From: Siphonodentalium dalli
Taxonomy: Eukaryota; Mollusca; Scaphopoda; Gadilida; Siphonodentaliidae
Direction: 5' to 3'
Assembly (NCBI GenBank): GCA_032622095.1
Contig: CP136069.1
Span: 161,871,043-161,935,042, forward strand
DNA: 64,000 bases
Shown here in pieces: positions 25,401 through 63,745 of the stretch. Under the pieces are notes generated by a model. That model was given only the letters and a program-made list of their open reading frames with translations, did no database searches and was not told the origin of the DNA. Positions within the stretch are counted from its first letter, which is position 1. The number at the start of each line of letters is the position of its first letter. The translations under genes were made by a program, and so were the position numbers.

Positions 25401-28400
25401 TTGTTAGGCCAATGCATTCTCTTATAGGTCGCCTCGCATATATAAGAGAATGCATTTGCACAGGGTAAAAAAATACCGACTTCCGACTGGATTTGATATG
25501 GCGGGTCACATATTCTTAGCACTCTCGATCGAGGCAAAATGTCATTTTGATTTAGATATTTTGCTCGGCGACATCAGGAATAAGCCACTTTATTATGCCG
25601 TTATACAAAACTAATATTATACCAAATCCTCATTTTGTCTGTGTTTTATTCACATAAAAAGGTATTTGTATTGTCTGGAAATCGGGTTTTGATAAAAAAT
25701 AAATATGTTGTTGTAATTGTGGCCCGGAAGAAATACAACATCTTTGAGGACATTGGGGTGCAACATTATTGCATCCATCCCATGCAGTTTCTAAAGACAA
25801 TAAGCATTGGATTATCGCGCTTTCATCACGTTTGACATTGCCCTCATCAGCTGTACCATGCACACTGTCTAACGATCACAGCTGACCGTCGATAACTAAA
25901 TAGTGACCAAAAGTTTGAAGTTTGACGTTCTCTGATATAATCATTCCGAACTGTAACATTGTTTTGTATTTGTGCAGTACTTCTTCTGTGACAGTACTAT
26001 TATATATTTTTGGAACTTCTGTCTGTATGGATGTATGAGTGTATGTGTTTATGTCTGTTATAGACTCGAAAACTGCTCGACCGATCCGACACATGGTAGG
26101 TAGGACTACTTTGTTCCCGGGAACAATTTGGGCGGGTCCAATTCCTCGTGCGACCGTGTCATTGACCTTGACCTCGCCCATATACGCTCATATAGTCTGT
26201 TTCTGTTTCTGTTTCTGTGCCTCGACCAATCCTACTCAAATTTAGTATGTAGGCCTACTTTGATCCCGGGAACAACATGGGTGGGTCCAATTTCACGTGC
26301 GACTGTGTCCATGACATTGACCTCGCTCACAATCGCTCATATAGTCATGTTTCTGGACCTCGACAGATCCGACTCAAATTTGGTATGTATGCCTACTTTG
26401 ATCTCGGGAACAATATTGGCGGTCCAATTTCATGTGCGACCGTGTCCTTGACCTTGACTTCGCTCATATACGCTCACATAGGCATATTTCTGGACCGATC
26501 GAACAATAATTTTTTTTCTTTCTCCTAATACTTTTCAACGTTGAAATCCCTAAATAGCTAGGACGAAGTCGGGCACATCAGCTAGTTGTTTTGTATTTGT
26601 GCAGTGCTTCTGTTCGGCGTGTACCATTGTTTTGTATTTGTGCAGTGCTTCTGTTCGGCGTGTACCATTGTTTTGTATTTGAGCAGTGCTTCTGTTCGGC
26701 GTGTACCATTGTTTTGTATTTGTGCAGTGCTTCTGTTCGGCGTGAACCATTGTTTTGTATTTGTGCAGTGCTTCTGTTCGATGTGTACCATTGTTTTGTA
26801 TTTGTGCAGTGCGTTTGTTCGATGTGTACCATTGTTTTGTATTTGTGCAGTGCGTCTGTTCGGTGTGTACCATTGTTTTGTATTTGTGCAGTGCTTCTGT
26901 TCGGTGATAGCTGTCGCCATGCCACAATTTACGCCGCCGCCGCCATACATAGATCCCATGCTCGGTATGCCACTCCAGCCATTTCCAATCCCAATGCCAT
27001 TCCCCGCACAGACAGGAATGACAGGGACGGGGTTGCCAGGGACAGGGCTGCCAGGTACAGGCACAGGGACAGGAGGAATGACAGGTTAGTTAGAAATTAG
27101 CGCGCCCTATACTATCTCTTGCTTGCTTGCTTGTTGTGGAAATCACTCCTTTAGGTGAGGAGCACCCCATTATATTGAGTACTGTATATAAAATAATAGT
27201 AGTAAAAAAATTCTAGTAAAACTGTCGTAATGATAGAAGGGTTGATAAAACTGTGGTGATAGTAAATTAAGAGGTCATTTGTGTGTGTATATTAACACAT
27301 AAGAGCTTTTGAGCATTATAGGTTATCTAATATGTGTGGCCATACGCATACTACACTTGTATATGCATATTATTCTGTATTGGAGGTAAATAAATAAATA
27401 AATAAATCGCATATATAAGAGAATGCACTCGCTTACAATGTCAATGTAAATATTGTTAGGCCAATGTATTCTCTTATATATGCGAGGCTCCCTATGGGAG
27501 ACTCGCATATATGGGAGAATCCATTGGTACAGGTTTACACAAATTTCACGAAGCTCCAGTCATGGGAGGGATACTAGTATGTTTAACCCTTTCTATAATA
27601 AATATTCATTGATGAGTAGTTCCAGTTTCCTAGGGAAATGTTCAGATAATAAGTTCAACAAACGAACATATTGTTGTCTTATTATCTGCAATTTTTCCCC
27701 ACAAATGAATATGAATCCTTCAGAACTTGTATTATCTTTTCGTCTGACAGTCGTCTGCTAATTTATCCTGAACACCCATCTAAACGAATAATAGACCATT
27801 CTAATGTACAGTTTTATACCTGAATGGGAAAATCCATTTGGAAATGAAAGGGTTTAGGTTAATAACTTGTAAGTTTTAACTTCTCCCATAAAGCGCCATT
27901 TATCTATTTAACACCTTATGCCTCAGTCTCTTTTAACCCTTCAATGATTGGAGTTTCCTTAAATTATACGAAAGCCCTGTGTCAGTGCACTCTCTTGTAT
28001 GTGTGAGTCTCCCATAGGGAGCCTCGCATAATTTATAAGAGATTACCCTGGACTAACAATATTACCTTGGCCTTGTAAGCCAGTGAATTATCTTATGACA
28101 TGTATATGACCTAGCTATATATAGATAGAACCCATATCAGCCCAATTTGTTATTGGCAGTCATGACCTTAATTTTTAAAGGCCCACTTAATTTTCGAACC
28201 CCCAGATTACTTTATAAAATATATACCATATTATATACCATTTGAAAGAGGAAGCTCCACAACACTGTATTATCAACTTATTCAGTGTAATAAACTGTAG
28301 ACAATATTGTTTTTGTTGTTGTCAACGCGTTTTTTCATCAAGATTGAAGTAAACATCAGTATTTGTTTTATTAAAGATAGAGTTCTTCCCCTTGCATTGA

Positions 28401-31400
28401 AACAGTTTGAATTCTGTTGCATTCTGGGTGCCAGAGGGGGGAAGTCTTCAGCAGTTTTCTATTTCTCTGTGGGCATCTTCTGAGACACAGATGTTTCAAA
28501 TAGTGATGAATTATAGTATTTTAATCATATTTTATAACATATATTGTTATTAAAACCGTATATCAATTCACTATAAAAAATAATAATCGGCGACTCGAAT
28601 ATTAAGTGGGCCTTTAAAGATAATTTATGTCATAAATGTATAGAAACTGGGCTTGTAATTTCCAGCTGATTGAGGCTGATTGGTGTTTTTTTTAATTGTG
28701 TCCCATTAATAACATGTACCAAATTAAAAAAATAAATTCCAGATAAATTTAGAACAAAATCCATTTTGAAATATCAAGAAAGTTTCATGGGCGTCTAGCC
28801 TATTATGTAATTGTTGATGAATCCTGTTTATTTAGATATGATGTTGGTGGACCCTATATTCTTACTAAATAATGGTGTCGGTAGGTCTTGCCAATTTAAT
28901 GACATTGTGTGACGTTGTTGCGTGCTGCGGGTTCAGCTATGTGATGCTGATGTAGCCAGCTTACTTACCAGACCATGCAAGTCTTCTCGGTCCGCAACAG
29001 CTAGCCCTGGTATCGGCTGTGTTGATACTGTTTTGGGCCGAGTCCCGATCCGTTGCTCTTCTATAACGGAATTAATTCAAAAGACGTACTACGTGTACAC
29101 ACGTGGAGCCCGGGCATTGAGGTAAATCCCTGAATATGATTAATCATCTAACATGTCCGCGATTAATCAGTCTTCAAAAGTGGTAGACCATTTACTGTGA
29201 TATAAACAGGTATAGTGATGATACGATCGTTTAATATATTGTTTGCATGCATTTTCTGATTATCTGGCAAACAAGGCTTTGTTTACTTATATCAATCTCG
29301 TTGCTTTGACGTTGAACGGACATCTGATGTGTGTTTGTTAGACATCACCATGCTTGGGAAAGTCTACCCTCTATGTTTATGTACACAAAGCTTCCATTTG
29401 ACGACATAAAAGCAAGATAACCCCCGCCCACGATTCTGGGCGTAAAGTCAGTTATAGAAGAGTAACGGGTTGGGACTCGGTCCAAAACAGCATCAATCCA
29501 ACCGATATCCCAAGCTTTTGTGGACAGAGAAGACGTATATGTGGCGTCGGTGTATCCTATTGATTTATTAATAGTTTGCTCATCCGCGAATATGGTGAAG
29601 AAGACCAATATACAAGTCAATGCAGGAACCTACGTCACCAACCAAGTCTCTAACCCAAAGCGGTTTTGATTTTAAATATGTTTAAAGGCACGGGCGGCGC
29701 TCGTTGCAGAAATATTCATATTTGTTCAAATCGCCATCAACAGAAGGAAAAATACAATGTATATAGTTTTGTTCATATGCCAAACATAATCAGCGCGTAA
29801 ATAGTATATTGTCATCAGGACGTGCGATGGTATACGTAAACAAGAACTTGTTCTATTGGTTAATTACACAAAAATTGTATAAACGCTCTTTATTATTTCC
29901 ATATCACGAAAACAGTAACAAATAACGCTCTTTATGTTTACCATATCCGGATCTAAACAAAAGCCAGGTAACGTAACGTTTTTTTGCTTTTGTTTACATA
30001 ACAAAGGAAACACAATTGACAATAGCATGATGTATATGCCATATTTCTGATTGGTATAAGAACAAAATCTATCTATATTTTACTATTATTTCTGTGAATA
30101 TTTTAACAACATACCGCCAACGCCGCCCGTATCTTTAAAACGTATATAAACGGTTGTCTGACGGGATATAATATAGTACCACGCAGAGCTGTGGAAATTT
30201 ACAATACACATTCAAAAATCAGTAATCTCGTATTTATAAACTGAAATTTAAAAGGAAAATAGGTATAGGTTCTGTTCCGATTTTGAACATCATACACACC
30301 TCAACCATGCATTGAATAGATGTTCGCCAAATTCACATAACCCCTTTCGCCCGTAAGTACAATAACTCATGTAACACATATATAGCTAATCCACTGCATG
30401 ATTGCCGATAGCAGCTATCTGGACGTCTAAAGTGACGGTTTGGAGATTACATTAGTGACGTAGGTTCCTGAACGTCTGAAGTGACGGTTTGGAGATTACA
30501 TTAGTGACGTAGGTTCCTGAACGTCTGAAGCGACGGTTTGGAGATTACATTAGTGACGTACGGTTCCTGAACGTCTGACGCGACGGTTTGGAGATTACAT
30601 TAGTGACGTACGGTTCCCGAACGTCTGACGCGACGGTTTGGAGATTACATTAGTGACGTAGGTTCCCGAACGTCTGAAGTGACGGTTTGGAGATTACATT
30701 AGTGACGTAGGTTCCTGAAAGTCTGACGCGACGGTTTGGAGATTACATTAGTGACGTAGGTTCCTGAACGTCTGAAGTGACGGTTTGGAGATTACATTAG
30801 TGACGTAGGTTCCTGAACTTCTGAAGTGACGGTTTGGAGATTACATTAGTGACGTAGGTTCCTGAACGTCTGACGCGACGGTTTGGAGATTACATTAGTG
30901 ACGTAGGTTCCTGAACGTCTGAAGTGACGGTTTGGAGATTACATTAGTCACGTAGGTTCCTGAACGTCTGACGCGACGGTTTGGAGATTACATTAGTGAC
31001 GTACGGTTCCTGGACGTCTGACGCGACGGTTTGGAGATTACATTAGTGACGTACGGTTCCCGAACGTCTGACGCGACGGTTTGGGGATTACATTAGTGAC
31101 GTACGGTTCCTGAACGTCTGACGCGACGGTTTGGAGATTACATTAGTGACGTACGGTTCCTGAACGTCTGACGCGACGGTTTGGAGATTACATTAGTGAC
31201 GTAGGTTCCTGAACGTCTGAAGTGACGGTTTGGAGATTACATTAGTGACGTAGGTTCCTGAACGTCTGAAGTGACGGTTTGGAGATTACATTAGTGACGT
31301 ACGGTTCCTGAACGTCTGACGCGACGGTTTGGAGATTACATTAGTGACGTAGGTTCCTGAACGTCTGACGCGACGGTTTGGAGATTACATTAGTGACGTA

Positions 31401-34400
31401 GGTTCCTGAACGTCTGAAGTGACGGTTTGGAGATTACATTAGTGACGTAGGTTCCTGAACGTCTGAAGTGACGGTTTGGAGATTACATTAGTGACGTAGG
31501 TTCCTGAACGTCTGAAGTGACGGTTTGGAGATTACATTAGTGACGTACGGTTCCTGAACGTCTGACGCGACGGTTTGGAGATTACATTAGTGACGTAGGT
31601 TCCTGAACGTCTGACGCGACGGTTTGGAGATTACATTAGTGACGTAGGTTCCTGAACGTCTGGCGCGACGGTTTGGAGATTACATTAGTGACGTAGGTTC
31701 CTGAACGTCTGAAGTGACGGTTTGGATATTACATTAGTGACGTAGGTTCCTGAACGTCTGAAGTGACGGTTTGGATATTACATTAGTGACGTAGGTTCCT
31801 GAACGTCTGACGCGACGGTTCGGAGATTACATTAGTGACGTAGGTTCCTGAACGTCTGAAGTGACGGTTTGGAGATTACATTAGTGACGTAGGTTCCTGA
31901 ACGTCTGACGCGACGGTTTGGAGATTACATTAGTGACGTAGGTTCCTGAACGTCTGAAGTGACGGTTTGGAGATTACATTAGTGACGTAGGTTCCTGAAC
32001 GTCTGAAGTGACGGTTTGGAGATTACATTAGTGACGTAGGTTCCTGGCCCTGATATTACTATATATTTCCGTTGAAATGTTGCATCGCTGGCGTCAAGAT
32101 TACTTGTACTGTCTCGTTTGGATTTGTTGACAACACCCTTGACATATGGGTTCAAGCGTATGTGACTCTCTACGAGCAAACCGCAACTCCCATTTTATTA
32201 ATCTGACTATGTGTATTTCCAGGCGGTCAACAGCGCCGGGGCCCAGGAATGAATCCACTTTGTGAGTACAGTATATATATTGAGTACTAATATATAGTCC
32301 AAGAGATATTGGTCGACCTTTGCATCATAGGAGTCAACTTCACCCCACTATTTTCTTCCGTAATGTCTCCTCTAATTTGTTTCGGTTGTTAACAAGAAAA
32401 ACAAGTGGCCTCAGGGACTCCAGACAAGATGGCATACATCATGGCGGCCATTTTACTTGATATGCACCATCTCTCTTTGATCGCCATTATAGTAAACATA
32501 TATAATATCACATGCGGTTTTATTTTCAAAGATCCGACTCCAAGTCCAAAATCTAATATGGCGGCCAAGATGGTGGCCAAAATATTAAAAAAAAATGCTA
32601 AATCTTATAAAAGAGTGATTTACGCACACAAAGAGACCATTCCTGGTCGGATATTTTTGCCTGATATCACGTTTTTCCAAATGCCGATATATATATAAAT
32701 ATTTTCGTCATAGAAAACCATATGGTGCGATAATATGAAGGGAAACATGTGTATTAAATGCATCTGTACCAAATCTAACGACATAATAAGTAAATGTATG
32801 TATAGTTCCGCGTATATAGGCGCGTATATAGAAGCGGCGTACATGTGCAGCGCAAAAGGGGGCGGGCAGCGGAGCGAGTTACAGGCCCCTGTGTTCATAC
32901 CGGTGTTATATTGGTGTGTTTTAACTGCGAGCACCCATGGCGATTTAAAGGTACTCAATCGGACCAGAGTGTTCCCATATCATCAAGATACAGCAACAAC
33001 AACAACAACAACATTTCTTCGAAATACGATTAATTGTCAGAATCGATAAATTGCAACAAAATAATGCTAACCATGCACTGTCAACTATGGTATTAAATTT
33101 CGACACCGTACGTTTGACGGAGTGTTTCTGGGGCACAAATAACTGAACATCTCGAGAAATAACGCACTTCAAAAATCGATATCTGATCACTCTGAGCTTT
33201 GATGGGTGGATTCCTGGACTTGAATCAGATATTGTTTGAACCCGGAAAGCAAAGAAAAAGTAATTTAGGAGCGTTAAAATTCGGATAATGCATCTTTAAT
33301 TAGCGATTCTTCATAAAGAGAAAGTTATATATTGTGTCACTTCCTCAACTTGACATTTTTAATTTTCCACGCGCGGCTTTGGATTTTATTTATGTACCAT
33401 CAAATGCAAGTTTTCCGATTGATCATACCCATGCAATTGAAATGCAAAGCCTCTAATTGAACAGCGTTGAACACTTTTACTAAGTTTGTATTACCCATGA
33501 TCCCTACAGCTATCACATAACAAGCGTGATCTGTCAAGTTATTAGCGGGTTGAAAGGCCCACCTAATTTTCGAATGCCCAAATCACATTATATACAATAT
33601 ATTCCATATTATATAAATAAAATCCAAAACCTCGCGTGGAAAATGAAAAATGTCAAGTTGAGTTTCGTTCTCATTGACACTTTAATAATGCACCAGGCTA
33701 CACTTCTTTCCGAAACAGTATCGAGTATCGATTATAGATTTTGTTATGTGATTACTCATAGCCGCAAGGGCGCCCGAATTTTAGGTGGGCTGAGACTCTT
33801 TGTACGACTTAATTTTACATGATATACTCACGGTTGTAACACAGTTTTTGTATAATATACCTTTTATATACACATAAATATAATAAACTAGCTTCAAATT
33901 CACCTTAAATATGTATAATTCTGGCAGAAATATGAAATATACTATAATTTGCCACAATTTCCCCCTGAAATACCATTCAATTTGCCCGAAAATTGCCCGA
34001 ATTGGACCGAAAATATTATCAATTTGTCCGAATATTGCCCGAATTGTGAGCTTTCAAAACGCGTGGGGGGGGGGGGGCTGCTGCATCCCTCTCAGCCGCT
34101 AACCCGGTTGTGTGGTTATACTTATCCGTTTATTTGATATTTTCTCGAGAATTGTAGAAGACAGTAACAATACAGTATCAAAATGGCGCATAGGTGACAC
34201 AATTTTCCATCATCAAAGAAATGTCAGTTACCCAGTTGGATTTTGAGAGTGTCACTCATTTTCATGTACAGTAAACTGGACATCTTTTCTGAACTGTAGC
34301 TACTTATGGATTTCAAGGGGAGATAATTCATAAGAATTAGGTGACATATTTAAAGGGGTACTGTACACTAAGTCCGGCCATTTATGGGACCATCCATGGC

Positions 34401-37400
34401 TCAAATTCATGTATTTGTTGCGTATATTATGTTGATAATAGAATTAGTAGATGGTTCCATTAATGATCGGATTTAGTATACAGTCCCCCTTTAACAGAAA
34501 CAAAATATTTGTAAAAACTAAATTACATCAAACTGGAACTGAATCTTCATTAAAAGCACATACAGTAATGCTCTAATTAATCGACTCCTAACCACAGCAG
34601 AATTATGGGTAAATTTTCAGGATTTAGTCTGAAATATGGCTTGTTGCCATTCATCGGAAAGCTCTCACCGAGAGCTTTCCGATGAATGGCAACAAGCCAT
34701 ATTTCAGACTAAATCCTGAAAATTTACCCATAATTCTGCTGTGGTTAAGGAGTCGATTAATTAGAGCATTACTGTAACTGGATAGTAACTGGCATTGGTT
34801 TATATTATAGTGGTTTAAGTTGACTCATTTTTGGTAGGAAAATCCTGTTTGTCTTGAAAACCAGAAAGTCTCGTTTTTGGAAGTTGCCTGGCAAATTATA
34901 CAAATTATTTCTGTTCTAAGAAAATAAACCAATGCTTAACTAGTTAACCCTTCCATGACTGGAGGTCACTGGAGCTTCTGAAATTTGGCGAAAACCCTGT
35001 GCCAATGCATTATTTTATATATGTGAGTATCCCATAGGGGGCTCGCATATATATAACAGACTATATTGGCCTAAAATTATTGACCTTGACCTGGTAAGCC
35101 AGTGCATTATCTTATATATGCGAGGGTCCCCATGGGAGTATCGCATATGTAAGAGAATACACTGGCACTGCATCGTTAATGGTGCATCAGCGCACCTCCC
35201 GTCATGAAAGGGTTAAGTGTTCTAACTTTTAAATGAATCCACGTAGATTTGTTTATGGAAGATTTAGATTTGGAAGGAAAAAAAACATTGCTATGGCAAC
35301 CAATGCTGAAATAAAGCCATCTGTGTCCGCTAAACAGTTAATGAACATGGAATTGAAGTCACGTTTTATTTCTTTTACAGTAATGATGGCTATGATGAGG
35401 TAAGTAATATAAGTTGTAATTATCTTATGATGAGATAAATAATATAAGTTGTAATTATGTCAGAGTAATAATGGTTATGGTGAGGTAAGTAATATAATAG
35501 AGGAACTGTAACGAGTCGCAATTATATACGAAAGTTATTTACCGACTGCACTAAATTCGATTCTCGAATCGAATTTAGTGGATGAGGTTAATATGACGAA
35601 TTTGATATCCGTTTTATTACGTAATCACATTTTAGCAGCGAATCGGCTGGGGTTAAAAAAAAATAATATTGATTTCCTTATCACAACCAAAGAGGAAGTA
35701 ATTACACCTTCAACAAATATAGTTACATATTAAATGTGTGTTTTCATTTGACAAAATTGTTCAACCACCCTTATCACCCATGTTATTATTATCTCAGTAA
35801 CACTCACACCCAAACTTGGGTCAAAACTTTCAACAGTTGAAATTTCATACCAGACCAAACATTAGTTGGAAATTTCACACCAACAACAGGTTGAAATTGT
35901 TCTCGTAGTTTGATTTTCCAACAATTTGTTAGTGGGGAATTTGTTGTTTTAGACCAACATTTGCATATTTTGCTACCTTTGGAAAGCCATCAGTTGGACA
36001 TTTTCCAACTTTATAGGCAGGGGGTGTCAGGTTGGAAATTTCCAACACTTGGAAAGCTTAAGGAGAGTCTAGATGTTGGGATTTTGTAATTTCCATGCTC
36101 AGAGGTCGGTACGGCGTGTGGTGTGCCCACCCCCGTGGCCAGTCAAAAACTGCTATAATCAATTTAAGAAAGAAAAAATCGGGGAGTGAATTTGCCTCAA
36201 TGTCATCCGTTTCAGATATCCAACTGTTCTCATCCTGGGCCGAACCATGGTCGTCCCAGTAGATCCCCCCCCCTGGTCAGTGGCCTCAACTAGACTGCTG
36301 ATCTAATCAGAATAGCCTCCGAGCCAGGCGTGCGATGGAACACTTGTGAACATTGAAGGAGGGTGCAAATGGAATTACGAAACTTGTGAGTCGGTCAGGT
36401 TCAAGAGGAGTTCAGTTGGAAATTACAAAGGGCATACCAGAGATACTCTAGGACTGACAATGTAACGGACTACCATAATAAACTTGGTCTAGCGATCATA
36501 GATTAATTTACCGGTTATATTGTAAATATTGTAAATATTGTATATATGTTATAGCATGTTTCGCCTTAATTGACGACTTTGCAATAAACAATCAACAATT
36601 TCCATAAAAAGCGAAAATAGTACGTACTATCAGTCCAGAATGACACAAATAGTGGTGTTATATTTGTTTAAGTCAAACAATTATACGCCTGGCAATACCA
36701 GTATATTTAATAAGCAAACTCCGTGCACCAACACTTTATATGCCTATGCAATAGGAGTGATAAATAATCAAATCACAACTAGTCCGTGATAAAGACATTA
36801 TGCCGAAATTCAGCACGGATATTAATTGTGTGTTCAAAACGTCCAATATATCGTGGACCGATAACATATGTGACAAAAAATGCTCGGAGCTAACGGCACA
36901 GATGAAGATGTGACCAAACGCCGAGCTTCTGTGCAATAAATATGCGTATCACTTAAAGGCACGTGCGGCCTTAATTGTCGAAAATATTCATATTTGTTCC
37001 AAACACCGTAAACAGAAAAACATTAAAACGCATACAATTCCGTTCATATATACCATGACCATCGCGTAAACAGCATGTTATCATAAAGACCTACTATATT
37101 TTACCTAAGCAAGAGCCTGATTGTGTTACAGAAGACAGCACAATGGTACTGGCTAATCACACACAAATGGAATAAACGCTCTTTATTAGTTCCATATCAG
37201 GTATTCACCAACAAAGAACGCTCTTTATGTTTACCATCATAATATAAACAAACACCAGAAAAGTAACTTTTTATGCTGTTGTTTACATAACAACGGTCAA
37301 ACATATGACCATAACATACTGTTTATGCGATATTTCTTATTTGTATACGGACAAAGTCTATCTACATTTTGATGTTCTTTCTGTTTGTGGCGGTTTTTGA

Positions 37401-51003: not shown

Positions 51004-53386
51004 GTGGCAGTTATAAACTGCTGCGACCAAGGGAAAGAAGCTGAGTTCTCTACGAAAATTAACCTCTCCAAAATCACGCAGTTCACGACAGATTTGGAAC
51101 GCATTAGTGGTAAGAATCCTATATCGGCACATGATATTTCAGCTCTCAATACTAAACTTAAGTCTATTTATCTGGATACTGCATCATCGGCTCTCGGAAC
51201 GCACAAGAGTCACGAAAACCGGTCGAAAAAGCGGAAATCTACTATGCCTTGGTATTCCAGGGATTGTGCTAATTGTCGGATACTTTACCGCCGTGAATTG
51301 AAACGCTATCAAAGCAATCGCTCCGAATCTTAACAGAACGAGACTCAGTGACGCAAGAACAACGTATAGGCGAGTGACGCGAATGAGCAAACGCAAGTAT
51401 GATAACGAAACTCAACTGAAAATGTCTCGTCTTCGCACATCCATACTTGTGTTTTTAAAAATATTTGTCAAACTATATACCGTGTGCCGATGCTGTTAAG
51501 TTAAGTTAGCTATATAAAGAATATTAAGTGCATTGAAAAAACACGAATACTCAGTTGCTTAACAGCCTTCGCTCACGGTATAATGGTCGGAATTTGTTTT
51601 ATGTAAACATGTATTCATTACATCTTCTCTTTATACCACCTGATTTGGTGGCTAAAAGAATGAATAAACTATATGGCGCGAGTTCTGGAAGATCATAGGT
51701 AGTAAAAATACATCTCCGTCGCTTAATGAATTTAGGGATTATTTTTCCGAAAATAATGTATCACCCGACCAACATAATGCGACACATATATAAGTTTAGA
51801 TTCAGTGAACTTAGAGTTATCGGAATTGAACCGTGATATCGAAAAAGACGAGATAGATAGGGCTATACGCTGATTGCAATTTGGAAAGGCCAGTGGGATA
51901 GATAACATAACAAATGAATACATAAAAATGACATCGGGCCATTTAAATGAACCTCTGCGATTATTTTTCAATATTATTATCAATTCAGGCATATGTCCAG
52001 ACGAATGGGGAATTAGGATAATACAGCCGCTTTTCAAATCGTACATGTGTAAGATCAGAAAAATCCTCAAAATTACAGACCAATAACACCAACCAGCTGC
52101 ATTGCGAAGCTCTTTACTTCGATTCTAAATGACCGAGTTCAGATCTTCCTAGAACATAATAAACTGCTATCTCATAACCAATTGCAAGCCGGCTTCAGAA
52201 AGAACTATTGCATTATTGATCACATATTTTCGCTCAACTGTCTCATAGATCTTGTAAACTTACAGAAGAAAAATCTGTTCTGTGGTTTCATAGACCTTTC
52301 GAAAGCCTTCGATCGTGTGTGGAGAGCGGGTTTATGGAAGAAGCTTTTCGATATTGGGATCGAAGGGAAAATATTGAATGTGATAAAAAATATGTACGAA
52401 AATACTAAGTCATGTGTGACCTGGAATGGCAAACATTCTGAGCTATTCCCGTGCCAACTTGGTGTACGGCAAGGTTAAATCTCTCCCCTATTTTGTTCTC
52501 GATATTCACCAATGATTTAGTATATTTTTTAAGTGCAAACAGTGTAAGTGGAATTGAAATTTCTAATTCTAAGACCCAGTCGAGCATCAACTATCTGAAA
52601 CTATTCTGTCTATTATATGCCGACGATACAGTGCTCTTGTCTGATACATGGACCGCAAGCCATGTTACACAATTATTCAACGTATTGTCTGACATGGAAA
52701 CTAACGATTAATATTGCTAAGACCAATGTAGTAATTTTCGGTAGAAAACGGAAACATAACTACAAATTCACTTTGGATGGCCAACCTATTGAAACCTCAC
52801 TTCATTATAAATACCTAGGTGTTACATTCTCCAGCAACGGTTCCTTTGTAGAAGATAAAATGTAGGTGTCAACACGCCAAACGAGCAATATTTGCGCTAA
52901 TTTCCAAGATGCGTAGCCTGAACCTGTCTCTTAAATCATGTTAAATGCGTGCTACATATATATGACACAACTATTATCCCTAGCCTGTTGTATGGATCAG
53001 AGGTCTGGGTTTTTGGGAATAACGCCATTATACAGCGTCTTGAACTTTGGTTCCTAAAATATTTCTTCAAATGGAAAAAATCAACACCGAGTGTACTAAT
53101 TTATGGCGAGATCGGAATGTACCCAGTTACGACCAGAATCAAACAACGGATCTTGAATTATTGGGCCAAACTCATTAGTGGCAGCCGGGATAAGATCAAC
53201 TGCTTACTTTACTAGACATTTTGCAGTAGATTTGGCCCGCGCGACAAACTTTACGAACAACAACAAGTCGTGGATCAACCACGTGTCAAATATTTTTGAA
53301 TGAAATTGGTTTACACGGTATATGGGATTTGCATCATGTGGGCTCACTAAAGTTGTTCAGTCATGCCATCACGCAACAGTTACAAG
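51004..53386 (+). pseudogene. LINE ORF2 part 2: reverse transcriptase, decayed
   Basis: With several stops and frameshifts it reads EIDRAI, FGKASGIDNITNEYIKM, NEPLRLFFNIIINSGICPDE, QAGFRKNYCIIDHIFSLNC, FCGFIDLSKAFDRVWRAGLW, NGKHSELFPCQLGVRQG, then the catalytic LLYADDTVLLSDT. The connection region LLYGSEVWVFG follows. These are the standard RT motifs of APE-class non-LTR retrotransposons. The frame is cut at tacaag (53381-53386) by the giant palindromic element and resumes at 63740. Confidence 0.9.
53381..53386 (+). repeat. Left copy of the 6-bp target duplication (tacaag)
   Basis: It matches tgcaag at 63740-63745 with one mismatch. Removing the element and one copy restores a continuous LINE reading frame (…ITQQLQDNFFQEW…). 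Confidence 0.8.
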
Positions 53387-53508
53387 AGAAGATAGAGCCA
53401 CTCGTTGGGTGCAATCGTAAAATTGGGCGTAAGTGTATTTTGAGTATGTTAGTACTATAGTACTATATATTTGAGAATTGTTGATAAAAATTGGCGTAAG
53501 TATATTTT

Positions 53509-53845
53509 CGATAGAGCAGGGCGTCATATTTGAGCGTCCTGTTGGTATGTGTATATTGTTGACTAACAAGTTGGTTCATCGTGTATAAGTGTGAAGTTGT
53601 TTTTTTTGGGAACTTTGTAATTTCGGTCGACTATTGCGTGTCTGCAACTAAATAATCTCAGCTTAAGATGGCTTAACCAAATTATTCATAGAGCAGGTCG
53701 TCATATTTGAGCATCATGTGGGTGTGTGTATATTGTTGGTTCATCGTGTGAAGTTGCTTTGTAATCTCGGCCGACTATTAAATGTCGGACACATCAACTA
53801 AATAATCTCAGCTTAAGACGGCTTAACCAAATTATTTGCGTAAAG
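53509..53845. repeat. Subterminal direct repeats of the palindromic element, left arm
   Basis: Two roughly 160-190-nt units, each with ATAGAGCAGG(G)CGTCATATTT, GTGTATATTGTTG, GGTTCATCGTG, then AACTAAATAATCTCAGCTTA and GGCTTAACCAAATTATT. Mirrored in the right arm at about 63280-63620. Subterminal repeats often bind transposition or replication proteins; that role is inferred. Confidence 0.75.
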
Positions 53846-54690
53846 ATTCAGACACACATACATCTTACTGTATTTTGATCAACAGATAAATATTCCCACC
53901 TACTGGATAGTGCGTATTCATCCGAAGAAATGTCTGATTCTGTCAACTGGGATTAAAAAAATGAACACTTTAAATATTGTATATCCTACCATATGTGAAC
54001 TTGAATTATGTCATCACCAATAAATACATGTATAATCGATTATCTTTTCAATAATAATATCTCGCTGGGTTCTATCGTGGTAAAAATCTTTTGTTTGACA
54101 AGAGATTTTCCACTCAATGTTTGTCACAGACCTACGTCATAATACTCCCCCTACCCCAACCACCTTCACATCTCACATCACTTACCCGCACCTATTCATG
54201 CACGTATATATTGTACAATGTGTACGTGTCGGAGCACAAGACATCCAAATAAGGAGTATTACCTCATAGTAAAGGAACGCTCTTTATTCATATTTCAACA
54301 TAAATGACACACTTACATTATCGAGAATTATTGGAAAACATAGTAATGTGATAGCGAACATCAAACGAGTCTGCGCACGCATATCTGTCAAAAGATACAA
54401 TAGCAGTCATTGGTCAATTTATCCACGGTGTCAGCTCAGTACACAATCGGCACGAAGCCGGAGGTCAACTCAGTACACAATCGATTTCATCATGTCACCA
54501 GGTTACACATATCTATATAATAGAGTGTTCATATTGAAATCACTCATAATTGCATTGACATTTGTATAGGTAGGTTGGATTGTAGCCAATGTGATAAATT
54601 TGTATCCAGTACAAACAACACGAAGAGACGTTGTGAACGACAGCCTGAACTAGTTAACTAGTCCACCACGTTTCCCTTGTTTCTGTTCTA

Positions 54691-54698
54691 TATAAATA
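54691..54698 (+). promoter_or_regulatory. TATA box of the left-arm ATPase gene
   Basis: TATAAATA, 52 nt before the ATG at 54743; the same sequence is present in mirror image in the right arm (about 62429-62436). Confidence 0.55.
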
Positions 54699-54742
54699 TA
54701 GGTGCATAGAAGAACGCTCGATTTCACTGATTATATAGGAAA

Positions 54743-56451
54743 ATGAAGTATCAATGTGAAGAGTGCTTAAGTGTCTATGCTTGGCAACAACAACAACAAC
54801 ACCAACAACAACAACACCACCAACAACAACAAAAACAACAGCAGCAGCATCATCAACCGCCACAACAACAACAACAACAGCAACAACAACAACAACATCA
54901 TCAGCCGCCACAACAACAACAACAACAACAACACCAACAACAACAACAACAACAGCAGCATCATCAGCCGCCACAACAACAACAACAACAACAACCGCAA
55001 CAACAACAACAACAGCAACAACAACAACAACAACAGCAACCAATCGACATAACATCCTGCTTTGATGATCCAATGGCCAAAATCCAGGAAGATTTTATTT
55101 TCAAGCATCCATTCACGGCATGTGTAAGTGGACCGACATCTAGTGGGAAGACGTACTTAGTGAAAACCTTGCTACAAAAGTCTGCCTCAAAAATATCACG
55201 AAATAAAGTATACCGTCACCCCTCATGTCAACTTTATACGAGGAATACCAGCAAACTTGGATTCTCTTATCAACCCCCGGTATAAAAATCTAGTTATACT
55301 CGATGACTTGATGCAAACTTCATCAAAAGACCAGAGAGTTAATGATTTGCATTCCGAAGGAAGTCACCATTTGAACTTATCTTTGATAATTTTGAACCAG
55401 AATTTCTACTACAACAAAGATCCAACGCAACGACGAAATTGTCAATATTTGGTATTGTTCAATAACCCAATCGACAAGGGATTAATTTCAACATTATCAA
55501 GACAGATGTATCCTGAATGTCCTCAGCGTATGGTTCGAGAGTTTTCTGGAAGCGACGAGTGAACCGTGCGTTTACCTACTGGTGGATTTAAAAGCCGCAA
55601 CACCGGACACATTACGTCTGCGACAGAATGTACTAAAAGAGGACACGAACCAACATATGGGTGAATGGAATGGCATGAAATACGATGACAGAGAACACCC
55701 AGATGAACAGAATGGGATGAAAAAACATACAAAAGACACTGAGACCCAGGGTCAACAGAATGCGATGAAATACGATGACAGAGAACTCGCTGGTCAAGGC
55801 ATAGCATATAATTATATTGTGCCCCAGGGTCAACATAATGGCTATACTAAGGACATAAGGCCACCTGGTGAGCTCGATGAAATTAATAAGAAGAACCGTC
55901 AAAACATAGACATTCGAGAAGACATGTCGTACCCTTGTAATGACTGCGGGCTTTTGTTCGAAGATCATTATGATGTTCAGAGACACGTAAAAAACTGGTG
56001 TAAAGAAAATAAGTTAAAACGAAAATTAACTGAGGACACGGATGATAGTCAGAATAAGAAAATTAAATTGAATGAAGATGAATACTTCCAAAGTTTGTGT
56101 GATGAGAGTAGAGATAAAACACATGAGGAATGGAGTGATAAAGTGGAAACGTATAAGGAAAATGGCTCGACAGAAACAGAAACAAAAGAACAAGCTGACA
56201 AGGACCTTAAAAGTGAACACATGAGGCAATTTATGAATGGTTATGCTTGGACAATAGTAGCGTATCTGCAGCTGCGCAATGGGACTCTGCACAACAGAGT
56301 CATGGATAAAATCGACAAATATTTGAATAATGGTTATGAAGATCGTGATGCAGTGAAAATGTCAATATTAAAGTACAAACCGATGCTAGAAAAATCCATG
56401 GACGAAACAAATGACACTTCTGACGAAAGTGATGACAATTCGGACGATTAA
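54743..56451 (+). pseudogene. Polinton/adintovirus-type packaging ATPase with zinc finger and Gln-rich tract, left-arm copy, broken
   Basis: The order is: start MKYQCEECLSVYAW (first half of a C2H2 finger; the second half is missing here); a Gln-rich tract of about 80 codons with PPQ and HHQPPQ repeats; Walker A in FKHPFTACVSGPTSSGKT; Walker B in KNLVILDDL; then LSRQMYPECPQ; a linker; a second finger (CNDCGLLFEDHYDVQRHVKNW); and a Lys/Glu/Asp-rich tail ending DESDDNSDD. The family is the FtsK/HerA-like A32 ATPase that packages DNA into virions. Breaks: loss of about 50 nt near 55200 that shifts frame, and one extra T near 55545 (GTTTTCTGG). Only one intron-free gene, with AATAAA at 56457. Both copies are inactive as they stand. 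Confidence 0.8.
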
Positions 56452-57100
56452 ATTTCAATAAACTTCATCAACATGATATTCTCGTTTTCGTTATATATCT
56501 ATAAGCGGGGAGAGAGTGAGTGGATTATTGGGAATTGTAGAGTGAGAAACGATACGTAATGATAAAAGGCGCATTAAGAGCCCGAAAATTTGAACTTTAA
56601 ATATTGTTCTGTGTCATTTTAACTTTCAACCACTGCGCTTGTATTGTTAACATTCATTCATAATGAGTGTCTTGTGTCCCTTTAGAGTGTCTTGTGTTCC
56701 TTTAATATTCAAACACCAATATTGCATCACGTCCCTTGTTTCGTGTCACTTTAACTCCTTGAGTGTATTGCCCCTTCTAATGATGTCATAGCATGGGTAC
56801 ATGCAAGACAGTATAACACTATGACTATGTCTGTATCTGTTGTTGGGAAGATGTGAAATATAAATTTCAGTTCATTCGTGTAGTAATTTCGTATGAATGA
56901 AACACTCTTCATTCGTGTATTACCAACAGGAAGTTGTACTATTTTTGAAAGCAATCACGATGTGTAAAATTTTCATTAAATTACAATAAACCAAGGGCTA
57001 AGGTGTAACAGGATTATGGTCAAATAACCCAGAGTGACTTAATTCACAATGAAGTAGACTCCACTGTAGATGCGAGATGTATTGTTTGTCCATAGCTCAA

Positions 57101-58317
57101 GGGCGCGTACACATGGCGGGCAAGAAAATATCAGGTATGCCCCATGTGACTTACTTGACCAATCAAATAAATAATACCGGAAAATATCCGACGAAGGCAG
57201 CGCGCTGATATTTTATCGCCAGTTGGTGATATGTGTTCACCTTGATTGGTGGCCATCGGTATCCGTTAACTAATCTCTATAAGGGACACGCTGGTAACCG
57301 TTCACGCACTCGAGTTATGGTCCATCAATATTATCGCCTGTTCAACAATTGACTTCGTAATTCCATTTTGGATTGTTTGACATAATCGCTGAGCTATTAT
57401 ATGGATATGTGTGGGGACATATATTTTTGAGGGTTTCCGCTGACGGAGGATGTCCATGGATTTCCAACTGCACCCCCTCTTGAATCGGGCCAAAGACCCA
57501 AGATCACATAATTGAATTTGCACACCTCCCATCGTCTTTGAATTTCCAATATGCATATGTTACCTCACATACCTTGAATTTTGACTGGACATCGGGGAGG
57601 GAGGGGCCTAGAAGAAATTCCAAACCAATAATTTGATCAAAGTAGGAAAAATGCAAATGTTGGTCTAAAACCACTAATTCCACATACATTAATGGTTGAA
57701 AAATCAGACTACAAGAACAATTTCAAACCATTGTTGGTGTGAAATTTCCAACTAATATTGTTTCCGAGTTGTCCCCATGTCCCCACATGCACCATGTAAG
57801 TTCGGTAACGTAATGTACACCACAGCCCCATGCACCAAGCAACAATCTCCTGAAAACTTCATATGGGGTCTCAATGGGGGTGGGGTCATCAGATTTGCCA
57901 CAAAACCATAATAACATTTGTCACCCCACATATACATGCACTGTGAAATTATAACATTTCCAAATTTCCAAATAACGTGACCACTTTCTCATTATGCAGA
58001 AGATCTTTATGCATGAGATTAGCAACGTTGCTACAGGTTAGTGGTGTCTAATCCCACCGACTTCGGTAATACATGTCAACTTTACAGTTGGAAATTTCAC
58101 AAAGCTATGAATTGCCAAAATGGACTATATGTTATTTACCGGATGCAATTCACTTGAACCAGCATGACTAATACTGTTCTGATTGAGCTCAATCAACGCC
58201 ATCTATAAACCGCCGCGTTCTCACGGGTGTAATCTTTGCAGCAAGAAGATATCAGTGTGCAATTTTACCTGATATTTTCTTGCAGATATTTTCTTGCAGC
58301 TTCATGTGTACGCGCCC
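57101..58317. mobile_element. Insertion in the left arm with GGGCGCGTACACATG ends
   Basis: GGGCGCGTACACATGGCGGG at the left and CATGTGTACGCGCCC at the right are inverted, with further inner boxes (AAGAAAATATCAGG and CCTGATATTTTCTT). The right arm of the palindrome lacks it and preserves TTAA at 59898-59901; here the flanks are TCAA and TAA, i.e. a degraded TTAA duplication. The interior has GGAAATTTCAC phrases related to 35835-36060. No gene seen. Confidence 0.85.
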
Positions 58318-58341
58318 TAAGTGTGTAAACATCACATTTTG

Positions 58342-58356
58342 CTCGTCACGCTATGA

Positions 58357-58402
<46 letters not shown>
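58342..58402. repeat. (TA)n microsatellite, left arm
   Basis: About 30 TA units. The mirror tract with an added (CA)n lies at 59807-59859. Next to it, about 130 bp (58403-58530, with CTATACCGGTTTCGGCAC) is absent from the right arm. Confidence 0.9.
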
Positions 58403-58406
<4 letters not shown>

Positions 58407-59163
58407 TGAAAATTAAGAAAGGTATCCGTTCATTGTTGAATATTTATTACATGTATGTACAAACAGCTATACCGGTTTCGGCACATCTTGCCTTTTCAAT
58501 AGCTTGGAGTTCTGCGTGGCTTGTATATAGATATATATATATATGTGCACACATGATACAATTCTAGTCATACCTGAGATTAAGTATAATGTAAACATAG
58601 GATTTGCTCATCAGACGATAATCTGACAATATTTACGCATGGTAAATTTATATTCATGCGTAATGGTAAGGTTAAGGTAATGTTTTTTGTTATGGTCAGG
58701 ATTTTGTTGCGGCCATGTTCTAGCATAGATCGATAAATAAGATAAAGATTGTTATAAGTAATCGTTGTTTCACAGACAGTTCTATTGGTGATCGAATTTG
58801 ATAACTATTTTGTTGGAAAAACTAAGAGTGTTAGAGTAGCCTCCCTGTTATTTAAATAAAGAGCGTTTGTTTCGCTTATGTGCGATTGAGCACAGGCGGT
58901 AACTAGGTCTATCGAGTATATAACATATAGCGCCATCATATAAAAGATGAAAGAAACATATCAACAGCTTTGTTTAGTCTGATATTACGTATGTATATGT
59001 GTGCACGTCTAACATGTGACCTTTGGTGAAATAGTGCTACACGATGCTTAATAACTTCATCGTTATAGAGAGGTGATGAATAAACGCTCCTTGTTATTTA
59101 CGTGAGAGTATAATGTCCAATTATTGCAAATAAAACATTGTGGACATATGTGGACACCCGATT

Positions 59164-59186
59164 GGCACACTTACTGATCACGTGAT
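59164..59186. other. 23-nt spacer at the centre of the giant palindrome
   Basis: The arms meet as ...ACCCGATT / AATCGGGT...; the spacer contains TGATCACGTGAT, itself partly palindromic. Confidence 0.85.
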
Positions 59187-59802
59187 AATCGGGTGTCCAC
59201 ATATGTCCACAATCTTTTATTTGCAATAATTGGACATTATACTCTCACGTAAATAACAAGGAGCGTTTATTCATTACCTCTCTATCATGATGAAGGTATT
59301 AAGCATCGTGTAGCACTATTTCACCAAAGGTCACACGTTAGACGTGCACACGTATACATACGTAATATCAGACTAAACAAAGCTGTTGATATGTTTCTTT
59401 CATCTTTTATATGATGGCGCTATATGTTATATGCTCGATAGACCTAGTTACCGCCTGTGCTCAATCGCACATAAGCGAAACAAACGCTCTTTATTTAAAT
59501 AACAGGGAGGCTACTCTAACACTCTTAGTTTTTCCAACAAAATAGTTATCAAATTCGATCACCAATAGAACTGTCTGTGAAACAACGATGACTTATAACA
59601 ATCTTTAACTTATTTATCGATCTATGCTAGAACATGGCCGCAACAAAATCATGACCATAACAAAAAACATTACCTTAACCTTACCATTACGCATGAATAT
59701 AAATTTACCATGCGTAAATATTGTCAGATTATCGTCTGATGAGCAAATCCTATGTTTACATTATACTTAATCTCAGGTATGACTAGAATTGTATCATGTG
59801 TG

Positions 59803-59861
<59 letters not shown>

Positions 59862-60545
59862 TCATAGCGTGACGAGCAAAATGTGATGTTTACACACTTA
59901 AGCTATGAACAAACAATACATCTCCATCTACAGTGGAGTCTACTTCATTGTGAATTAAGTCACTCTGGGTTATTTGACCATAATCCTGTTACATCTTAGC
60001 CCTTGGTTTATTGTAATTTAATGAAAATTTTACACATCGTGATTGCTTTCAAAAATAGTACAACTTCCTGTTGGTAATACACGAATGAAGAGTGTTTCAT
60101 TCATACGAAATTACTACACAAATGAACTGAAATTTATATTTCACATCTTCCCAACAACAGATACAGAGATAGTCATAGTGTTATACTGTCTTGCATGTAC
60201 CCATCCTATGACATCATTAGAAGGGGCAATACACTCAAGGAGTTAAAGTGACACGAAACAAGGGACGTGATGCAATATTGGTGTTTGAATATTAAAGGAA
60301 CACAAGACACTCTAAAGGGACACAAGACACTCATTATGAATGAATGTTAACAATACAAGCGCAGTGGTTGAAAGTTAAAATGACACAGAACAATATTTAA
60401 AGTTCAAATTTTCGGGCTCTTAATGCGCCTTTTATCATTACGTATCGTTTCTCACTCTACAATTCCCAATAATCCACTCACTCTCTCCCCGCTTATAGAT
60501 ATATAACGAAAACGAGAATATCATGTTGATGAAGTTTATTGAAAT

Positions 60546-62014
60546 TTAATCGTCCGAATTGTCATCACTTTCGTCAGAAGTATCATTTGTTTCGTCCATG
60601 AATTTTTCTAGCATCGGTTTGTACTTTAATATTGACATTTTCACTGCATCACGATCGTCATAACCATTATTCAAATATTTGTCGACTTTATCCATGACTC
60701 TGTTGTGCAGAGTCCCATTGCGCAGCTGCAGATACGCTACTATTGTCCAAGCATAACCATTCATAAATTGCCTCATGTGTTCACTTTTAAGGTCCTTGTC
60801 AGCTTGTTCTTTTGCTTCTGTTTCTGTCGAGCCATTTTCCTTATACGTTTCCACTTTATCACTCCATTCCTCATGTGTTTTATCTCTACTCTCATCACAC
60901 AAACTTTGGAAGTATTCATCTTCATTCAATTTAATTTTCTTATTCTGACTATCATCCGTGTCCTCAGTTAATTTTCGTTTTAACTTATTTTCTTTACACC
61001 AGTTTTTTTTACGTGTCTCTGAACATCATAATGATCTTCGAACAAAAGCCCGCAGTCATTATAAGGGTACGACATGTCTTCTCGAATGTCTATGTTTTGA
61101 CGGTTCTTCTTATTAATTTCATCGAGCTCACCAGGTGGCCTTATGTCCTTAGTAAAGCCATTATGTTGACCCGGGGGCACAATATAATTATATGCTATGC
61201 CTTGACCAGGGAGTTCTCTGTCATCGTATTTCATCGCATTCTGTTGACCCTGGGTCTCAGTGTCTTTTGTATGTTTTTTCATCCCATTCTGTTCATCTGT
61301 GTGTTCTCTGTCATCGTATTTCATGCCATTCCATTCACCCATATGTTGGTTCGTGTCCTCTTTTAGTACATTCTGTCGCAGACGTAATGTGTCCGGTGTT
61401 GCGGCTTTTAAATCCACCAGTAGGTAACCGTACGGTTCACTCGTCGCTTCCGAAAACTCTCGAACCATACGCTGAGGACATTCAGGATATATCTGTCTTG
61501 ATAATGTTGAAATTAATCCCTTGTCGATTGGGTTATTGAACAATACCAAATATTGACAATTTCGTCGTTGCGTTGGATCTTTGTTGTAGTAGAAATTCTG
61601 GTTCAAACTTATCAAAGATAAGTTCAAATGGTGACTTCCTTCGGAATGCAAATCATTAACTCTCTGGTCTTTTGATGAAGTTTGCATCAAGTCATCGAGT
61701 ATAACTAGATTTTTATACCGGGGGTGATAAGAGAATCCAAGTTTGCTGGTATTCCTCGTATAAAGTTGACATGAGGGGTGACGGTATACTTTATTTCGTC
61801 ATATAGGGGCTGCCAATATTTATAAAACCATATTATTCTGTCAGGTGCGGGTGATATTTTTGAGGCAGACTTTTGTAGCAAGGTTTTCACGAAGTACGTC
61901 TTCCCACTAGATGTCGGTCCACTTACACATGCCTTGAATGGATGCTTGAAAATAAAATCTTCCTGGATTTTGGCCAGTGGATCATCAAAGCAGGATGTAA
62001 TGTCGAATGGTTGC

Positions 62015-62048
<34 letters not shown>

Positions 62049-62384
62049 TGTGTTGTTGGTGTTGGTGTTGTTGTGGCGGCTGATGATGCGGTTGTTTTTG
62101 TTGCTGTTGTTGTTGTTGTGGCGGCTGATGATGCTGCTGTTGTTGTTGTTGTTGGTGTTGTTGTTGTTGTTGTGGCGGCTGATGATGCTGTTGTTGTTGT
62201 TGCTGTTGTTGTTGTTGTTGTTGTGGCGGCTGATGATGCTGCTGCTGTTGTTGTTGTTGGTGTTGTTGGTGTTGTTGTTGTTGTTGTTGCTGATCTGAAG
62301 GTGTGTGTTTAACTTTGATATGACTCTTCAAACTATCTTACCAAGCATAGACACTTAAGCACTCTTCACATTGATACTTCATTT
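60546..62384 (-). pseudogene. Polinton/adintovirus-type packaging ATPase, right-arm copy, broken differently
   Basis: Reads on the minus strand from ATG at about 62382. The N-terminal finger is complete in spacing (C-x2-C-x12-H-x4-H) but a TAA replaces one codon inside it. Then come a Gln-rich tract of different length and phase pattern from the left arm, Walker A with GPTSSGKTYFVKTLL, then KYWQPLYDEIKYTV (lost from the left arm). A missing A near 61718 shifts frame before Walker B. The next frame (61690-60980) is long and intact through FSEATSEPYGYLLVDLKAAT, characteristic of A32-type ATPases. A longer A-run near 61008 shifts frame inside the C-terminal finger; the tail (60929-60546) is open. 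Lesions differ from those in the left arm. Confidence 0.8.
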
Positions 62385-63739
62385 TCCTATATAATCAGTG
62401 AAATCGAGCTTTCTTCTATGCACCTATATTTATATAGAACAGAAACAAGGGAAACGTGGTGGACTAGTTAACTAGTTCAGGCTGTCGTTCACAACGTCTC
62501 TTCGTGTTGTTTGTACTGGATACAAATTTATCACATTGGCTACAATACAACCTACCTATCCAAATGTCAATGCAATTATGAGTGATTTCAATATGAACAC
62601 TCTATTATATAGATATGTGTAACCTGGTGACATGATGAAATCGATTGTGTACTGAGTTGACCTCCGGCTTCGTGCCGATTGTGTACTGAGCTGACACCGT
62701 GGATAAATTGACCAATGACTGCTATTGTATCTTTTGACAGATATGCGTGCGCAGACTCGTTTGATGTTCGCTATCGCATTACTATGTTTTCCAATAATTC
62801 TCGATAATGTAAGTGTGTCATTTATGTTGAAAGATGAATAAAGAGCGTTGCTTTACTATGAGGTAATACTCCTTATTTGGATGTCTTGTGCTCCGACACG
62901 TACACATTGTACAATATATACGTGCATGAATAGGTGTGGGTAATTGATGTGAGATGTGAAGGTGGTTGGGGTAGGGGGAGTATTATGACGTAGGTCTGTG
63001 ACAAACATTGAGTGGAAAATCTCTTGTCAAACAAAAGATTTTTACCACGATAGAACCCAGCGAGATATTATTATTGAAAAGATAATCGATTATACATGTA
63101 TTTATTGGTGATGACATAATTCAAGTTCACATATGGTAGGATATACAATATTTAAAGTGTTCATTTTTTTAATCCCAGTTGACAGAATCAGACATTTCTT
63201 CGGATGAATACGCACTATCCAGTAGGTGGGAATATTCATCTGTTGATCAAAATACAGTAAGATGTATGTGTGTCTGAATCTTTACGCAAATAATTTGGTT
63301 AAGCCGTCTTAAGCTGAGATTATTTAGTTGATGTGTCAGACATTTAATAGTCGGCCGAGATTACAAAGCAACTTCACACGATGAACCAACAATATACACA
63401 CACCCACATGATGCTCAAATATGACGACCTGCTCTATGAATAATTTGGTTAAGCCATCTTAAGCTGAGATTATTTAGTTGCAGACCCGCAATAGTCGGCC
63501 GAAATTACAAAGTTCCCAAAAAAAAACAACTTCACACTTATACACGATGAACCAACTTGTTAGTCAACAATATACACATACCAACAGGACGCTCAAATAT
63601 GACGCCCTGCTCTATCGAAAATATACTTACGCCCATTTTTATCAACAATTCTCAAATATATAGTACTATAGTACTAACATACTCAAAATACACTTACGCC
63701 CAATTTTACGATTGCACCCAACGAGTGGCTCTATCTTCT

Positions 63740-63745
63740 TGCAAG
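63740..63745 (+). repeat. Right copy of the 6-bp target duplication (tgcaag)
   Basis: One mismatch from tacaag at 53381-53386. The LINE frame continues directly after it. Confidence 0.8.

Follow-up and report, generated by a model that had tools for sequence, protein, structure and literature searches.

How does a mobile element come to consist almost entirely of its own inverted copy, and why is the single gene that it keeps a packaging-type adenosine triphosphatase (ATPase)? This puzzle is raised by a 10.35-kb near-palindrome at positions 53387-63739 of a 64,000-nucleotide stretch from the scaphopod mollusc Siphonodentalium dalli (assembly GCA_032622095.1, contig CP136069.1, forward-strand positions 161,871,043 to 161,935,042). 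Hereafter, we refer to this whole stretch as the window, and positions without a prefix are counted from its first letter. Self-comparison of the window displayed inverted arms that run through the element end to end. In the reading that we prefer, with a probability of about 0.65, the element belongs to a family of non-autonomous Polintons (Mavericks) with the ATPase as their only recognised gene, in which palindromes formed recurrently by snap-back of replicating strands and were inserted by a Polinton integrase acting in trans.

Inverted alignment delimited a left arm (53387..59163, plus strand) and a right arm (59187..63739, minus strand) around a central asymmetric loop of 23 nt (59164..59186), which follows the sequence of a single-gene relative, locus L053, beyond the arm and then reverses. 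The arms were 94.8% identical across the outer 1.7 kb (with 48 gap positions), 98.6% across 1.9 kb covering the gene and its 3' region, and 97.3% across the central 640 bp; identity went down to ~84-89% in stretches with the Gln/His-coding tract of the gene and was 95-99% elsewhere. Kilobases of inverted identity at 95-99% are far beyond chance. The left arm is the longer one because it contains two insertions. The first, at about 57102..58317, is private to this arm in the arm comparison and lies outside the palindrome proper; it has short terminal repeats of its own (GGGCGCGTACACATG...), sits at a TTAA-like site, and is younger than the palindrome. The second, a 0.12-kb insertion at about 58403..58523, resembles a repeat at 35858-35981 of the window. 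The element ends read AGAAGATAG... at either side. As delimited by comparison of tips, the left terminal tip (53387..53520, plus strand) starts with the end motif (AGA)2 and continues into a tip common to other copies, and the right one spans 63606..63739 on the minus strand; both ends are identical over the first 46 bases (AGAAGATAGAGCCACTCG...), and the tips are 99.2% identical over the first 130. A target duplication flanks the element, TACAAG at 53381..53386 and TGCAAG at 63740..63745, which match at 5/6 positions. The first-pass annotation of this DNA had described arms around a 23-nt spacer, matching ends, one inward-pointing ATPase gene per arm, and a 6-bp duplication; the arm alignment reproduced all of these, the duplication being present but imperfect. 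Palindromes are a general hazard of long-read assembly, yet an artefact is very unlikely here, to the point of being negligible, because private substitutions, indels, and the nested insertion are confined to one arm and because six further independent palindromic insertions carry target duplications of their own (five perfect and one at 5/6).

The ATPase gene in each arm encodes a P-loop protein and points towards the centre, and both copies are broken: the left one (54743..56451, plus strand) is disrupted by frameshifts as well as a deletion past the P-loop region, and the right one (60546..62382, minus strand) has frameshifts and, within its first finger, a stop. In the protein, two C2H2 fingers enclose a Gln/His-rich tract, the P-loop, and an A32-like core, in this order. 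At 55257-55562, the left copy matched Pox_A32 with 22.8 bits, equal to the cut-off of 22.8, and the ATPase of L053, which is 573 amino acids (aa) long, reached 27.2 bits against the same cut-off. The Gln/His-rich tract is strongly divergent between the arms (54785-55040 versus 62010-62292). L053 is a single-gene form of 7326 bp with 2.2-kb terminal repeats, and its one open reading frame (ORF) of at least 150 aa is the ATPase. In both elements this is the sole recognised gene, which supports the earlier description of the window element as non-autonomous: among the ORFs listed for the window element there was no PolB, and the ORF lists of the window element and L053 contained no rve integrase, protease, or capsid gene. 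Comparison of the ATPase with PHROGs and PDB gave nothing useful, and no relative emerged when viral_contigs was scanned twice with pieces of the ATPase.

A full Polinton of 17.65 kb resides in the same genome (C6:65487979-65505625; hereafter, the C6 Polinton). It carries a PolB open frame of 938 aa, an rve integrase with a chromodomain, (AGT)2 ends, and a perfect 6-bp duplication (TCCGCC); Pfam and PHROGs recognised neither a protease nor a capsid gene in it. Its inverted terminal repeats (ITRs) are ~98% alike and, at ~1.74 kb, not short, as the first-pass annotation had held those of Polintons to be. They align with another palindrome, L041, over 1237 bp (93.1%) and with the outer repeat of the window element in two stretches, of 467 bp (75.8%) and 158 bp (84.8%). 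The Polinton kinship that had been proposed from the window is thus borne out by terminal repeats common to a full Polinton, the very kind of element for which a search had been suggested. The palindromes probably spread with the help of a complete Polinton relative in the same genome. Thirty PolB loci (L011-L040) were also read as PolB plus 1.5-kb flanks, stretches that stop short of the element ends; one of the 30 (L027, the C6 Polinton) had at least 80 bp of DNA in common with the window element, and the ATPase pieces had no match in the other stretches. The long inverted arms and short internal loops do recall foldback elements, and one might take the window element for an ordinary cut-and-paste DNA transposon of that type, with very long terminal repeats and an ATPase present by chance. 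We consider this highly improbable: the ends, the 6-bp duplications, and the terminal repeats match those of the resident Polinton with its PolB and integrase, and the gene is of the A32 type.

Other copies, for which the first-pass annotation had proposed a search, proved to be many in the 2.23-Gb assembly (9 contigs). A 401-base ATPase piece yielded 956 candidate places, of which at least 40 were scored, at 97-100% identity and including six inverted pairs, all convergent. A 236-aa ATPase piece yielded 2654 candidates, at least 150 of them scored, and here all 31 neighbouring pairs less than 8 kb apart were inverted: 29 are divergent, 2 are convergent, and none is direct, where the 2 convergent pairs belong to the 6 of the first search. 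With part of the candidates scored in both searches, these totals are lower bounds, and partners of some scored places may be among the unscored candidates. The terminal tip gave 394 candidates, and the 40 scored formed at least 10 plus/minus pairs that bound elements of 2.1 to 16.8 kb. We examined 14 loci; besides the window, these were 13 stretches, each 10 kb long. Eight were two-armed palindromes (the window, L041, L045, L046, L047, L048, L049, and L054, the last with truncated gene copies), five of which had been picked for an inverted pair already visible in the 401-base search; among the loci fetched as unpaired matches, two of eight were two-armed. L046 and L047 go back to one insertion that was duplicated, together with its flanks, as an inverted segment, so that the two-armed insertions number seven independent ones. 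In L051, L053, L055, and L056, a single gene lies inside long inverted arms, and a classification of L051, L055, and L056 as two-gene divergent palindromes was dropped on that account; L050 and L052 were left unclassified. The 18-bp end with which a search for other copies had been proposed varies in its letters between copies: the end motif is (AGA)2 in the window, L041, and L045, (AGA)3 in L049, and (AGT)2 in L046-L048, L052-L055, and the C6 Polinton. Many copies, the single-gene form, and a full Polinton with the same terminal repeats together identify a high-copy family of non-autonomous Polintons.

The target duplications bear on where the palindromes were made. They were perfect (6/6) in five of the seven independent palindromic insertions (TATATT in L041, ACTAAC in L045, GATACG in L048, TATAGT in L049, and ACCACA in L054) and matched at 5/6 in the other two, the window and L046/L047; the single-gene form L053 has a 6/6 duplication as well (GATACA). 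If each palindrome had instead been built in place, once the element was already part of the chromosome, through inverted duplication or through head-to-head insertion of two elements, the segmental inverted duplication that does occur here in L046/L047, flanks included, would be a precedent. Such an origin is nonetheless largely refuted already and, in our estimate, quite improbable, given that the whole palindrome lies within its target duplication in all seven insertions and that the loops are just 23 nt (window) and ~35 nt (L046/L047) long. Around the window element itself, the left flank contains a reverse transcriptase domain (RVT_1, Pfam); searched alone against Pfam, the right flank gave no match, and, judged by eye, both flanks are pieces of one decayed non-long terminal repeat (non-LTR) gene.

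The centres of the palindromes differ between copies, and convergent and divergent classes exist. In the window element, the centre falls within a sequence that is an inner part of the terminal repeat in L053 and also, at 83.7% over 196 positions, in the C6 Polinton. Because the centre lies inside a terminal repeat, each arm resembles the single-gene element minus one terminus, and at the centres we observed two copies of one terminus flanking a loop that is colinear with the unfolded form. Expressed as positions on L053, the window arm extends to 6008 and turns back from 5983, with two shared bases, and L041 extends to 5988 and turns back from 5983, with three unmatched bases. L049 connects 5616 with 6109 (0 shared bases), L048 connects 5189 with 5963 (2 shared bases), L054 connects 3493 with 3920 (3 shared bases), and L046/L047 connect 5252 with 5218 (a single shared base, or four if one mismatch is allowed). 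The one divergent centre that was read, L059, is palindromic over all 1908 bp read and has a GC-rich loop.

Part of these findings weigh against a single ancestral palindrome that spread as a palindromic transposon, with centres reshaped by later deletions and with gene conversion or hairpin repair maintaining the likeness of the arms. L049 holds ~100 bases of terminal repeat past the breakpoint of the window type, where they are gone; hence, it is no trimmed version of a window-type palindrome, and an event of its own is the best reading. The divergent class folds at the other side of the gene, and the arms of L048 share a rearranged outer part that is absent from the other loci compared. The first-pass annotation had left the choice between a new palindromic lineage and a hairpin-derived product that then integrated. 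We prefer the latter; the family is more than simply a single palindromic lineage, as seen from the differing centres, the single-gene relatives, and the palindromes of opposite polarity.

Several observations nevertheless count against recurrent snap-back, and part of them speak for the single ancestor. The window and L041 may descend from one palindrome, since they turn at the same base and the loop of L041 could be a trimmed form of that of the window. Snap-back leads one to expect short matches at the turns, and the six junctions were mixed, several of them with a short match or none; the junctions of L046-L048 are also those that an already formed palindrome would show after deletions spanning its centre, and the centre of L045 is a minisatellite, uninformative on origin. 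The likeness of arms is similarly equivocal. In the gene tree, six elements were represented by two full arms, and in every one of them these arms were sisters, with supports of 0.43 (window), 0.74 (L046), 0.86, 0.93 (L047), 0.97, and 1.00, of which the first two are weak, and the partial left arm of L041 did not pair with its right arm. Variants found in exactly two arms fell within one element in 838 cases, many of which stem from diverged outer repeats, and between elements in 29 (3691 columns). Within the gene alone, the counts were 20 and 8, six of the latter among the single-gene copies L051, L055, and L056. For L046/L047, five such variants were shared within a copy and four across copies, and the tree paired the arms within each copy even though these are copies of one insertion. 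If the tree is right, this likeness postdates the duplication; conversion after insertion can thus make arms alike, and arm likeness is therefore no proof of separate origins and fits recurrent snap-back as well as conversion. The C6 Polinton, finally, has a decayed ATPase that is broken up between reading frames and shows just 32-40% identity to the protein of the palindromes, so their gene was not derived from the C6 copy. A single ancient palindrome that was later trimmed, and whose arms underwent conversion, could account for some of these observations; as an account of the family, we regard it as possible but on balance unlikely.

Recurrent snap-back, which we continue to favour, would proceed as follows. 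Linear DNA bearing Polinton terminal repeats would be copied by protein priming and strand displacement, as suggested by the end motifs and by the presence of PolB in a resident Polinton. A strand that is displaced or left incomplete, and so lacks one terminus, might then snap back and be copied into a two-headed palindrome whose two ends bear one and the same intact terminal repeat, with a loop between them; the anatomy of the junctions is seen directly, and the folding process is what we infer from it. Because both ends would be functional, such a palindrome could be replicated and subsequently integrated with a 6-bp duplication; the duplications are present at the insertions, and the integrase would presumably be of the C6 type, acting in trans. 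Repeated snap-back on either side of the gene would generate convergent as well as divergent palindromes, some of which may afterwards have spread as palindromes.

Why the ATPase is kept can be approached through its reading frames. ORFs of at least 500 aa were present in 4 of the 22 gene copies from the examined loci; the 150 scored places of the 236-aa search included 131 without an internal stop and 77 within open frames of at least 500 aa. These many open frames suggest that the gene is kept for use. Private changes among aligned copies (21 synonymous and 102 nonsynonymous, on 210 and 924 sites) look neutral. Changes fixed between two subfamilies numbered 5 synonymous and 15 nonsynonymous, and L059 and L053 differ over 105 codons around the P-loop by 3 synonymous and 3 nonsynonymous changes (on 69 and 246 sites), counts between subfamilies that are small and mixed; in a 91-codon core, nonsynonymous-to-synonymous ratios of 1.1 to 3.0 count against constraint, and overall the numbers are too few to prove it. 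Most likely, PolB and integrase from a helper are enough for spread, and the ATPase would give an advantage in packaging or copy number; the first-pass annotation had suggested that it may promote packaging of its own element by a helper. A bolder version takes the palindromes for self-renewing satellites of Polintons, in which snap-back is the normal mode of multiplication, the two-headed form is favoured for its two functional ends and two doses of the ATPase, and the ATPase is kept for steering the packaging of the helper towards the satellites. We offer this version tentatively and think it rather unlikely; if true, a host genome would have been colonised by inherited defective-interfering genomes.

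Upstream of the ATPase gene, a piece of 78-112 bp is shared at 89-94% between palindromes and the C6 Polinton (L043:1103-1214 in the C6 Polinton, L059:744-855, and about 54340-54433 in the window); in the C6 Polinton, it sits between the PolB gene and a gene for a TATA-binding protein (TBP), and it is perhaps a common promoter. The TBP gene is a 174-aa ORF (L043:2721-3245, plus strand) with two TATA-binding-protein repeats (PF00352, 97 bits), and its best PDB match is a TBP-like protein (E 2e-21). To our knowledge, a TBP gene is unexpected in a Polinton. The PF03175 profile had 149 matches in the genome, and two PolB types with long open frames (~952 and ~1312 aa) occur in many highly similar copies; by this measure, the genome looks rich in recent Polintons. 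Between tips of the same kind, there are also two very short elements, C9:162871159-162873263 (2.1 kb) and C2:88622791-88626059 (3.3 kb), for which the places scored in the two ATPase searches include no match, and which are perhaps gene-less derivatives. A 16.8-kb stretch between window-type tips (C7:106186434-106203216) contains the ATPase locus L056, whose gene is broken, and no further long ORF was found in the 10 kb read of it. Elsewhere in the window, a tandem repeat with a 49-bp unit (30419-32046; 33 copies, 96% match) and a 41-bp tandem repeat in which both strands retain long open frames (26586-26904; 7.8 copies) were present; Rfam and tRNA scans of the window found nothing, and a plasmid collection searched with window DNA gave no match.

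The current view of Polintons is that they form virions and that their linear DNA is replicated by protein priming. Integrated palindromes with the ends of the helper are the expected scars of extrachromosomal strand-displacement replication, and they would therefore give sequence evidence for the linear replication step, for which two-headed linear molecules would serve as an easy assay. Such palindromes would further represent a naturally occurring counterpart of defective-interfering genomes, and one that is inherited. The literature searched, with subscription papers outside its scope, contained no palindromic or named non-autonomous Polinton. The family is a variant form of a known kind, the Polinton, with which it shares 6-bp duplications, repeated 5'-AGN ends, long terminal inverted repeats, and an A32-type ATPase, and from which it differs in being palindromic and in that PolB, integrase, protease, and capsid genes were not found in the ORF lists. 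Foldback transposons such as FB and Galileo are likewise almost all inverted repeat, but have other ends, target duplications, and genes. The two-left-end genomes of adenoviruses, palindromic versions of a protein-primed linear DNA, have a duplicated end and a central palindrome as well, and are not integrated, unlike the elements described here. According to the excerpted text of PMC8097293, Mavericks have 6-bp duplications, a mean length of 16.9 kb, terminal inverted repeats of 46-1447 bp, and ends of the types (AGT)2, (AG)3, or (AC)3A, interpreted as jumping-back motifs, with (AGT)2 the most frequent in vertebrates; the same excerpts state that Polinton particles have not been observed. Compared with that description, the palindromes measured here are shorter (5.0 to 10.4 kb), and the (AGA)2-3 ends fall outside its three types. 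The snap-back genomes of adeno-associated virus, which in the excerpted text of PMC8235507 include symmetric and asymmetric forms of left- and right-end types, provide a further parallel: they too are self-complementary and come in symmetric and asymmetric as well as left- and right-end versions, and they depend on a helper, as the palindromes presumably do. Those genomes are parvoviral and found in virions, whereas the palindromes in S. dalli are integrated in many copies, and their replication is presumed to be protein-primed.

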